From positions 62,001 through 126,000 of the forward strand of contig JAIMAY010000003.1 in assembly GCA_023511725.1 (NCBI GenBank): 64,000 bases of DNA. Reading direction: 5' to 3'. This DNA is from Alicyclobacillus sp. (GTDB lineage: Bacteria; Bacillota; Bacilli; Alicyclobacillales; Alicyclobacillaceae). Below the pieces are notes generated by a model. It was not told the origin of the DNA. It saw only the letters and a program-made list of their open reading frames with translations, and ran no database searches. Positions 23,417-26,859 of the stretch are shown piece by piece. The translations under genes were made by a program, and so were the position numbers. The stretch's first letter is position 1; each line of letters begins with the position of its first letter.

Positions 23417-23481
23417 GCTTGTCGGTTCCGGGCCGTCTTCCGGCGGCCCAAGGGACGGACAGACAAAGCGGGGGACGCCTA

Positions 23482-24735
23482 TTGGACATTCGCGAATTGG
23501 AAGCGATGAAGCTGACGGAACTCTACAAATACGCGCGAGAGTTCCAGATACCCGGGTATGGCAACATGAAAAAACGCGAACTGATCTTCGCCATCCTCAG
23601 AGCCCAGGCTGAGCGAGACGGGCTGATGTTCGCCGAGGGTGTGCTGGAGATCATGCCGGACGGCTACGGATTCCTCCGGCCGGTCGGCTACCTGCCGAGC
23701 GCGGAAGACATCTACGTCGCAGCCTCGCAGATTCGCAGATTTGACCTGAGAACGGGTGACCTGGTCTCCGGGAAGGTGAGGCCGCCCAAAGAAAACGAAC
23801 GGTACTTCGGGTTGTTACATGTGGAAGCCGTCAACGGCGTCAGTCCCGAAGAAGCCGCGGAACGCCTGCACTTCCCCGCTCTCACTCCCTTGTTTCCTCA
23901 GAAACGCATGGTCCTTGAAACCACACCTGAACGAATCGCCACTCGGATTATCGACCTGTTTGCTCCGGTTGGATTCGGTCAGCGTGGACTGATTGTCGCA
24001 CCGCCGAAAGCGGGCAAAACGGTGCTGCTCAAAGAGATTGCGCACAGCATCGCAACGAATTATCCGGATGTCCACCTGTTCGTGCTCCTGATCGATGAGC
24101 GTCCGGAGGAAGTGACGGACATGCAGCGGTCGGTGCGTGGCGAGGTGGTGGCGTCCACATTCGATGAAGTTCCGGACAATCACATCAAGGTCGCCGAACT
24201 GGTGATGGAACGGGCGTTGCGCCTGGTGGAGCATAAGCGGGATGTGGTGATCCTGCTGGACAGCATCACGCGTCTAACGCGGGCGTACAACCTCTACATC
24301 CCGGCCAGTGGCAGGACGCTGTCAGGTGGCATTGACCCCGCTGCATTTCACCGACCCAAGCGCTTCTTTGGCAGTGCGCGCAACGTCGAGGAGGGCGGCA
24401 GCCTCACCATCTTGGCGACGGCGTTGATTGACACCGGATCGAGAATGGACGATGTGATCTACGAAGAATTCAAGGGAACGGGCAACCTCGAGCTGCACCT
24501 TGACCGTCGCCTGGCGGAAAGGCGCGTGTTCCCGGCGCTGGACATCCGCAGATCCGGTACACGCCGCGAGGAACTGCTCATGCCGAAAGAGGAGTTGGAG
24601 AAGGTGTGGGCTATCCGCAGGTCGATGGGGGACAACCCGGACTTCACGGAAATGTTCATCCGCAAGTTCAAAAACTACAAGACGAACGCTGAATTCCTCG
24701 CCAGCTTGGAACTTCACCGCGAGCGCAAGGCATGA
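23482..24735 (+). CDS. rho: Transcription termination factor Rho
   Basis: Hexameric RNA-dependent ATPase. The 417 residues include the N-terminal helical domain ([20 protein letters not shown]), the RNA-binding cold-shock-like fold ([15 protein letters not shown]), the Walker A loop [17 protein letters not shown], Walker B ([16 protein letters not shown]) and the R-loop/arginine finger region [16 protein letters not shown] chose TTG 23482 because the encoded [14 protein letters not shown] is the family's usual N-terminus and a GGGGGA lies upstream; the open frame before it has no family similarity. An in-frame ATG at 23509 is another option. Confidence 0.93.
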
Positions 24736-24794
24736 CCGCCGCTGCCGCCGACTCCCCGCGGTGACGGCCGGCGGGGGGAGGAAGGTGGACTGGT

Positions 24795-26078
24795 GTGTCG
24801 CAACCCCGATTGCTGTATGCCAATCGATACGGAGATATCGTGGAGCACCCGCGTCTGCTGGCCGCGGGCCGAGCAGGTCAACTGATCACGGATGTGGAGC
24901 CGGAAGAATGGGTCCCGCTGCCCGATGGCGCGACCTTGGCGTGGCTGCCCGGAACAAGGCCCATCGGTGTGGACCCGCGCACAGGCGAGATGACCGCGCT
25001 GGGGGACGGTTGTTATGCCGTGGGCGCGCTTCTGCCTCAGGGATACACGCGGCTGCTGCTGCCGGGCTATGTGCGGCGTAAAGAGGAGGACGTCACCCTG
25101 CCTCTGTTCGGTTACACGGCGGTGGGCTGGCACCGTGGACGCATCATGGTGGCCGCCCACCGAACCGATGATCCGGCGCCATGGAACCCCGCGTTGGTTC
25201 GTGAAGTGGATGTCGAGCAGGCCGTGCGACGGATGCTCGCGTCTCATCCGGGCAATCGGGTGTTTGAGCACCTGTCCCACTGTGCGCTGACGTATGGCTG
25301 CATGACGGCGAAAAACACCTTCCTCGGCCGCTACGAGGGCGCGCTTCCGGTGTCTGCCGCATGCAATGCCGGGTGCGTGGGCTGCATCTCCGAACAGCCG
25401 GAGGATGCGCCGTTTCCGTCGCCGCAGACGCGGCTCACCTTCCGCCCCACCGTGGACGAGATGGTGGACGTGATGCTGACGCACATCCGTTCCCATCCAG
25501 ACGCCATCATCAGTTTCGGGCAGGGCTGCGAAGGGGAGCCGAGCATGCGCTGGCCGGATATCGCCCGGGCCATTCGCCGCGTGCGCGAGGAGACCGCGGA
25601 GGGCTACATCAACATCAACACGAACGCCGGCCTCACTCGCGGCATTCAGGCGATTGTCGACGCCGGTCTCGACCTGATGCGCGTCTCCATCATCAGTGCC
25701 ATCCCTGAGCACTACAACGCCTACTATCGCCCGCGCGGCTACACGCTCGACGATGTGGCCGCATCCCTGCGTTACGCGGCCGATCACGGTGTATACACGT
25801 CCATCAACTATCTCGTGTTTCCGGGGGTGACGGATCGGGAGGAAGAGGTCGAGGCCATGGCCGAGTTCCTGCGCCGCACCGGCGTCCGACTGGTGCAGAT
25901 GCGCAACCTCAACATCGATCCAGATTACTACCTGGCGCGGATTCCACCTCAGCGTGGCGAACTCATTGGCATGCGGGGCGTGATGGAGGCGCTGCGGAGC
26001 GAGGTCCCGGGGCTGGAGATAGGTTCGTACACACACGTGCCGCCGGCGCCGTTGGCGCGTCGACGGGGCTCGCTGTGA
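24795..26078 (+). CDS. Radical SAM protein of unknown function
   Basis: A 427-residue protein with a radical SAM cluster motif CNAGCVGC (in SAACNAGCVGCISEQ) near residue 193, followed by an ordinary TIM-barrel half: DAIISFGQGCEGEPSMRWPD (the GGE-like SAM-binding strand), YININTNAGLTRG and RVSIISAIPEHYNAYYRPRG. The first ~180 residues form a separate domain (VPLPDGATLAWLPGTRPIGV) of unclear fold, ending in SHCALTYGCM. There is no extra cysteine cluster at the C-terminus. GTG 24795 follows a GGGGGAGGAAGG stretch. It is downstream of rho in the same direction and before rpmE. I cannot name the substrate; 'radical SAM protein' is as far as the sequence goes. Confidence 0.8.
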   Translation: MSQPRLLYANRYGDIVEHPRLLAAGRAGQLITDVEPEEWVPLPDGATLAWLPGTRPIGVDPRTGEMTALGDGCYAVGALLPQGYTRLLLPGYVRRKEEDVTLPLFGYTAVGWHRGRIMVAAHRTDDPAPWNPALVREVDVEQAVRRMLASHPGNRVFEHLSHCALTYGCMTAKNTFLGRYEGALPVSAACNAGCVGCISEQPEDAPFPSPQTRLTFRPTVDEMVDVMLTHIRSHPDAIISFGQGCEGEPSMRWPDIARAIRRVREETAEGYININTNAGLTRGIQAIVDAGLDLMRVSIISAIPEHYNAYYRPRGYTLDDVAASLRYAADHGVYTSINYLVFPGVTDREEEVEAMAEFLRRTGVRLVQMRNLNIDPDYYLARIPPQRGELIGMRGVMEALRSEVPGLEIGSYTHVPPAPLARRRGSL

Positions 26079-26121
26079 ACAGCGGTGCGGACGCACGGTG
26101 ATCCAGGTAGACCATCATTGT

Positions 26122-26153
26122 GACGCGGGAGAGTCCATGCTCTCTCCCGCGTC
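26122..26153. terminator. Perfect hairpin between radical SAM gene and small minus-strand ORF
   Basis: GACGCGGGAGAG (26122-26133) and CTCTCCCGCGTC (26142-26153) form a perfect 12-base stem with an eight-base loop. It lies between two convergent genes, so it can serve as a two-way transcription end. Neither side has a long T-tract. Confidence 0.6.
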
Positions 26154-26173: not shown

Positions 26174-26347
26174 CTACTGCCAGTCCGGCCCCATCGCGGC
26201 GCTCGGTGACACGGTGTCTGCCACCGCAACCGATCCGCCTGTCGGATGCATCGCGTGACGCACAGGTCCAGCGATGCCTACCCCCACTGCCAACAAGGTG
26301 AGCAGCGCGCAAGCCACCGTCCAGCGTTTCCACGTCCAACCTTTCAT
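26174..26347 (-). CDS. Small membrane-anchored or secreted protein, 57 residues
   Basis: The start is ATG 26345-26347 on the minus strand with AAGGGAGA about seven bases before, and the stop is TAG at 26174-26176. The protein starts MKGWTWKRW, then VACALLTLLAVGVGIAGPV as a hydrophobic segment (residues ~11-29), then a polar tail ending in MGPDWQ. Two basic residues before the hydrophobic run give the usual positive-inside charge, so it is a signal peptide or single membrane anchor. The hairpin at 26122-26153 lies downstream. I recognise no family. The combination of ribosome-binding site, signal-like segment and terminator supports a real gene; the open frame covering it in another phase has no such features. 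Confidence 0.55.
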   Translation of the reverse strand: MKGWTWKRWTVACALLTLLAVGVGIAGPVRHAMHPTGGSVAVADTVSPSAAMGPDWQ

Positions 26348-26578: not shown

Positions 26579-26607
26579 GTGACACGTTCACCGTTTCGTG
26601 ATATAAT
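26579..26607 (+). promoter_or_regulatory. SigA promoter of rpmE
   Basis: GTGACA (26579-26584), a 17-base spacer and TATAAT (26602-26607), with an extended TG one base before the -10, make a strong promoter. The start codon of rpmE is about 43 bases downstream of the -10 element. Confidence 0.75.
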
Positions 26608-26649: not shown

Positions 26650-26859
26650 ATGAAGTCCGGGATTCATCCCGAATACCATATCACGACGGTAACGTGCGCC
26701 TGCGGCGAAACGTTCGAAACCGGGTCCACCAAGGCCCACATCCGTGTCGACGTGTGCTCGAAGTGCCATCCGTACTTCACGGGTAAGCAGAAGCTGGTCG
26801 ATGCGGGCGGCCGCGTTGATCGGTTTAACAAGAAGTACGGCCTGACGCAGGCTCAGTGA
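26650..26859 (+). CDS. rpmE: 50S ribosomal protein L31, zinc type
   Basis: A 69-residue ribosomal protein. The four cysteines of the zinc site are present (CACGETF and [10 protein letters not shown]), marking the C+ form; the paralogue YtiA lacks these. Start ATG 26650 follows GAGGTGAACGCC. Its own promoter lies upstream and an intrinsic terminator downstream. Confidence 0.95.

Follow-up and report, generated by a model that had tools for sequence, protein, structure and literature searches.

The 64,000-nt stretch of Alicyclobacillus sp. DNA analysed here, referred to as the window, contains a gene for a radical SAM (rSAM) protein that the first-pass annotation had located between rho and rpmE and could not place in any named family, which raises the question of what kind of enzyme it encodes and on what substrate this enzyme acts. 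The location was confirmed (Table 1). The gene starts 59 bases after the end of rho, with a GTG codon preceded by a strong GGAGG-type stretch (GGGGGGAGGAAGG), and the order of genes in the window is rho-rSAM-rpmE-prfA. A 57-aa open reading frame, also reported at first, is indeed present on the opposite strand, 95 bases past the rSAM stop codon.

Three other features of the region were observed. Between the rSAM stop codon and the small ORF there is a GC-rich hairpin (positions 26122–26153; 12 pairs and an 8-base loop), which together with its surroundings (81 bases) has a folding energy of −34.8 kcal/mol (z −3.65), and which is not followed by a T tail downstream on the plus strand. A promoter-like site (26579–26607), with 11 of 12 consensus matches plus an extended TG, is situated 43 bases 5′ of rpmE, suggesting that rpmE probably has its own promoter in the window. 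Additionally, the minus strand contains a 460-aa open frame (24714–26096) antisense to the whole rSAM gene, which we take as a by-product of GC-rich codon use.

Table 1. Positions in the window of the rSAM gene, its predicted parts and its neighbours.
Feature	Position	Strand	Basis
rho, upstream neighbour (as listed; the true start may be further in)	23419..24735	+	ORF list
Radical SAM protein ORF, 427 aa, GTG start, stop included	24795..26078	+	ORF list; PF04055; family in two phyla
N-terminal beta-rich domain (predicted), residues 1–131	24795..25187	+	AlphaFold2 model, pLDDT 92.2
C163-X5-C169, cysteine pair before the radical SAM motif	25281..25301	+	Cys in 204/204 relatives
Radical SAM barrel (predicted), residues 184–415	25344..26039	+	Full model; nearest solved folds NifB, PFL-AE and LipA, Z 15–16
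CNAGCVGC, CX3CX2C motif of the SAM-binding cluster, residues 190–197	25362..25385	+	Sequence; conservation in relatives
GQGCEGEP, residues 242–249, with C245 at the end of strand 2	25518..25541	+	C245 is Cys in 204/204
57-aa small ORF, outside the system	26174..26347	-	ORF list; homologue search in 41 family genomes
rpmE (ribosomal protein L31), downstream neighbour	26650..26859	+	ORF list

Family membership, distribution and descent

The enzyme falls within the radical SAM superfamily: it shows a PF04055 match above the gathering score, the CX3CX2C motif and, in the predicted structure, a partial TIM barrel. PF04055 was the only Pfam match of the window protein (59 bits versus a gathering score of 29.5, residues 185–357), and 26 of 28 family members matched it at E ≤ 0.1; a search of the window's own genome with PF04055 returned 10 places, and this gene was not among them despite its 59-bit Pfam score. 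No NCBIfam cutoff was reached by the window protein, whose best score was 32.9 bits versus a cutoff of 325, and with PF04055 as its sole Pfam match the initial judgement that it belongs to no named family holds. A literature search, with most subscription journals outside its scope, identified no paper describing this rSAM family, and the passages found in PMC6925170 and PMC2825233 concern other genes.

Among the genomes of 61 relatives, 32 contained a match at E ≤ 0.001, being strong and full-length in 31 cases and weak in one (G005, 8.5e-4). Strong full-length matches were found in 13 of the 37 genomes of the window's own family and in 16 of 18 from the next family of the order. A wider search, covering Bacillota and the phylum of Thermogemmatispora, showed that 155 of 398 Bacillota genomes (E ≤ 1e-30) and 47 of 201 genomes of the phylum of Thermogemmatispora (T. 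tikiterensis is G455) contain a strong match, with one match per genome in all the rows listed from the Bacillota scan. Named carriers among the best 80 loci include Alicyclobacillus pomorum, A. tolerans, many Paenibacillus, Brevibacillus, Cohnella, Aneurinibacillus, Carboxydocella, Pelotomaculum and Thermogemmatispora.

In a tree of the quick kind with 127 rows (38 from Chloroflexota, 17 from Bacilli and 72 from other Bacillota), these three groups required two changes in all, which is the minimum possible; the branch uniting Chloroflexota is weakly supported (51). Searches of a plasmid collection (72,556 records) and of viral contigs retrieved no member of the family, and no PADLOC family was matched; a mobile-element or defence role was rejected on these grounds. 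The split of the tree by phylum, together with the lack of plasmid and viral matches, points to a vertical descent with many losses. One sequence from a Bacillota genome (L246, from G127) is placed apart from the remaining Bacillota rows of the tree, and may represent either a divergent copy or a transfer. These results show an ancient, single-copy and uncharacterised radical SAM family of Bacillota and Chloroflexota.

Invariant cysteines and predicted fold

Cysteine conservation was counted in a set of 204 non-identical relatives, comprising the window protein and 203 loci; 41 of 245 loci matched by tblastn were excluded as duplicates or because they were too short. The CNAGCVGC motif is present, as reported at first, and its three cysteines are conserved in 203/204, 203/203 and 203/203 relatives. 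C163, C169 and C245 are conserved to the same degree as this motif. The first-pass annotation was thus wrong in describing the N-terminal part as devoid of cysteines, since C73, C163 and C169 all precede the motif, and of these C163 and C169 are invariant and C73 is not conserved. Its exclusion of SPASM and twitch enzymes proved correct, because C245 is the last cysteine of the window protein and, further on, none of the alignment columns is Cys in more than 34 of the 204 relatives, so the C-terminal cluster cysteines of both types are missing. In 66 of 75 rows from non-Bacilli Bacillota, the radical SAM motif is followed 8–9 residues later by a CC pair (ECCPSPQ); since it is carried by none of the 91 Bacilli and 38 Chloroflexota rows, this pair was rejected as part of a shared mechanism.

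Radical SAM enzymes produce a 5′-deoxyadenosyl radical at the cluster bound by the CX3CX2C motif and, as a member of the superfamily, the barrel of the window protein would bind SAM through this cluster and make the same radical. There are exactly three further invariant cysteines, as in two-cluster enzymes, and this suggests a second, cysteine-bound cluster, a possibility to which we assign slightly less than even odds. C163, C169 and C245 would then hold the second site, probably with a [4Fe-4S] cluster of the open-site type known from LipA, TYW1 or RimO. PMC5352715 reviews five radical SAM enzymes that bind a second cluster through three cysteines.

The full-length structure was modeled with a mean pLDDT of 91.4 and a pTM of 0.90. 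Compared with solved folds, the predicted barrel gave Z scores of 16.4 for NifB, 15.3 for PFL-activating enzyme (PFL-AE), 15.0 for LipA, 15.0 for RlmN and 14.4 for TYW1, values that are too close for choosing a nearest fold. The highest of them, obtained with the nitrogenase cofactor maturase NifB over 216 residues, is nearly tied with those of PFL-AE and LipA, the identity to NifB is 19 %, and no nif context was present in the loci inspected. The proximity of the model to LipA and TYW1, among others, favors a second cluster; against it, the N-terminal segment does not show significant similarity to the cluster segment of LipA, and C245 aligns with a cysteine of spore photoproduct lyase that is catalytic and not a ligand.

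The lipoyl synthase LipA also has cysteines ahead of the radical SAM motif, with a shared CX5C spacing, and a possible C-terminal Ser/Thr common to both (S or T at position 413 in 200/204 relatives). In a weak alignment of the whole protein, hhalign paired C163 and C169 with cysteines 2 and 3 of LipA (E 0.0013, probability 18.6). However, the LipA pattern is CX4CX5C, the first cysteine being missing here, and the RSSY sequence of LipA (found in 4 of 5 LipA rows listed) contrasts with G[SN][YF][ST] in this family. The N-terminal segment scored 12.7 against the LipA cluster segment, versus 10.4 ± 2.7 (maximum 20.0) for 200 column shuffles, which is not significant, and homology of C163 and C169 to the LipA cluster cysteines was dropped because the segment score is within the shuffled range. 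Both genes occur together in 9 of 61 genomes, showing no association with lipA (p 0.30), and a lipoate link was rejected.

According to PMC5352715, TYW1, MiaB and RimO hold their second cluster by three N-terminal cysteines and have translation-related substrates. TYW1 differs in its CX12CX12C arrangement (same source), whereas the invariant N-terminal cysteines here are C163 and C169 only. The methylthiotransferases MiaB and RimO contain, as described there, UPF0004 and TRAM domains; the window protein matches PF04055 alone, and neither domain was found among 28 family members.

Alternatively, the protein could bind one cluster only, with C245 serving as an H-atom donor, like C141 of the lyase, and with C163 and C169 forming a separate redox, structural or zinc pair. 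PMC3742179 identifies C141 of the Bacillus subtilis spore photoproduct lyase as the direct H donor. In a profile alignment, C245 is at the position of this catalytic cysteine, a position that is Cys in 1 of 22 lyases, that of Paenibacillus (L313, AACTSDP), and Ala in most of the others. Its distance from the last cysteine of the motif is also similar (48 here versus 43 in the lyase). Nevertheless, this alignment is weak (probability 9, E 0.0035), the lyase has a different N-terminal part, to which the match of the N-terminal segment is not significant, and a set of three co-invariant cysteines beyond the motif usually signals a second cluster. Moreover, the presence of the lyase is not associated with that of the rSAM gene, both being found in 13 of 61 genomes (Fisher p 1.0), for which reason a sporulation link was also rejected. 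We consider the one-cluster arrangement doubtful.

Preceding the barrel, the model predicts a separate N-terminal domain (pLDDT 92), in agreement with the first interpretation of this segment. A Foldseek search with residues 1–131 found no match in the PDB (best E 0.86), and re-alignment with VIA-align 2 gave 0 of 995 chains at Z ≥ 2; such failed matches of a model do not prove a new fold. The domain is present in 76 of 149 Bacillota genomes, always within the rSAM gene, with the sole exception of one match (E 0.005) in a frame with stops. Since it is found in this gene alone, bar that match, the domain is dedicated to this enzyme, and these searches found no solved counterpart for it. It might present the substrate to the barrel; to call it a substrate-binding domain, as was initially done, is a guess.

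Gene order and candidate substrates

The comparison of gene order covered 68 loci of Bacillota, belonging to many families, and 33 of Chloroflexota, all with wide flanks, and considered genes on the same strand within 2.5 kb. The neighbor genes to be counted were chosen after looking, and the names obg, pth, rlmH, DUF1385 and M23 are those that we assume from reading the sequences instead of from profile searches. The counts that follow are lowered by early contig ends in some loci, and include loci L146 and L276, although the motif test found no rSAM there. Gene rpmE is downstream in 39/68 Bacillota and 12/33 Chloroflexota loci, and never upstream, whereas rho is upstream in 36/68 and 0/33, respectively. 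Also downstream are prfA (29/68 and 9/33), DUF1385 (31/68 and 8/33) and obg (0/68 and 9/33), and pth (3/68 and 0/33) and rlmH (1/68 and 0/33) occur near the gene. When near, rpmE, prfA, DUF1385 and obg are always downstream and on the same strand, and 11 Bacillota and 9 Chloroflexota loci retain rpmE in the absence of rho. In 57/68 Bacillota and 21/33 Chloroflexota loci, one or more of the genes rpmE, rho, obg, pth, rlmH and prfA are within 2.5 kb, and none of them is near in the remaining 11 and 12.

The association with these neighbors is real but largely inherited. Because the neighbors are housekeeping genes and their synteny is inherited, there are few independent contexts, namely the replacement of rpmE as a neighbor by obg in Chloroflexota and by pth in one Bacillota family. 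The question of whether the rho-rSAM order is kept across Bacilli has a divided answer: rho-rSAM-rpmE occurs in many genomes, but not across Bacilli as a whole, with 5 same-class rows listed with the gene and 10 without it (besides the window's own), and 24 of 37 genomes of its own family lacking it. Two further arrangements were observed immediately upstream of rSAM. A LysM/M23 peptidase gene is directly upstream in 40 of 101 loci, from two phyla (L129-L168, L187-L206, L237-L276), and Thermogemmatispora-like genomes encode a small protein of about 100–130 aa directly upstream, on the strand of the rSAM gene (7 members; L187-L192, L128).

The neighborhood of rpmE, prfA, obg, pth or rlmH suggests that the substrate is most likely a translation factor or part of the large ribosomal subunit, presumably a protein and not RNA, an assignment that we make tentatively and at less than even odds. 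An RNA substrate is disfavored because the family is acidic, with a mean net charge over the 204 rows of −12.7, and −5.3 for the N-terminal domain. The TRAM domain of RimO is described in PMC5352715 as having the opposite polarity, to bind basic S12. L31 itself is not supported as the substrate, since a comparison of the L31 sequences of 50 carriers and 20 non-carriers, the latter mostly Bacilli, found no column that separates both groups. Overall, the best explanation, with a probability of about one in three, is a radical SAM enzyme that has two clusters and acts on some component of translation.

It is also conceivable, if unlikely, that the gene codes for a small-molecule or cofactor enzyme, with chemistry like that of MoaA or BlsE, residing in a housekeeping block without any link to translation. 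The best family-level similarities are with these enzymes. MoaA, a GTP 3′,8-cyclase with which the family shares the radical SAM core, was the commonest NCBIfam match (25 of 28 members, with weak scores), and there was a weak profile match to solved MoaA (E 6e-4); BlsE (cytosylglucuronate decarboxylase) was the top Foldseek match (E 1.7e-9, 28 % identity over 213 columns). The acidic net charge is compatible with such a role, and 23 of the 101 wide loci have no translation neighbor. However, scores are far from the MoaA cutoffs (32.9 bits versus 325.25 for the archaeal model; 27.4 versus 231) and from that of BlsE (24 bits versus 400). The N-terminal domain is absent from MoaA and, as far as the alignment range shows, from BlsE, and the family lacks the C-terminal CX2CX13C motif of MoaA, in keeping with the end of cysteines at C245 in the window protein. 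Additionally, in two phyla rpmE follows on the same strand, whether or not rho is present, and where rpmE does not follow, obg or pth is found.

A role in the cell envelope, in partnership with the LysM/M23 peptidase encoded directly upstream, appears quite improbable. Upstream, on the same strand and at no more than 2.5 kb, an M23/LysM gene is indeed found in 33/68 Bacillota and 7/33 Chloroflexota loci, but the window lacks it at this place, as do most loci of Paenibacillus and Alicyclobacillus; no signal peptide is evident by eye in the predicted protein, and radical SAM enzymes are cytoplasmic. Finally, maturation by this enzyme of a peptide encoded by the 57-aa ORF, favored by proximity only, is extremely improbable: the enzyme is kept in two phyla and has no SPASM cysteines, whereas the small ORF does not co-occur with it, having no convincing homologue in 41 family genomes (best match outside its own genome, E 0.0038), and its role as precursor peptide is refuted as far as conservation can do so.

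Significance of the family

The gene is old, single-copy and undescribed in the literature searched, and is therefore worth a bench test. Single-copy radical SAM enzymes that are kept across two phyla usually carry out one fixed, useful reaction, and this unnamed enzyme combines a domain without a solved counterpart with a place beside ribosome and termination genes. In its fullest form, the proposal is that of an undescribed modification of the translation machinery by a two-cluster rSAM enzyme whose N-terminal fold would be new and which would have been inherited since early Bacillota and Chloroflexota and lost in Bacillus-like lineages; as a whole, we regard it as unlikely. If true, this modification would have been missed because the model organisms do not have the gene. 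If the enzyme does modify a translation component, the family would add a modification that is invisible to studies of Escherichia coli and B. subtilis.
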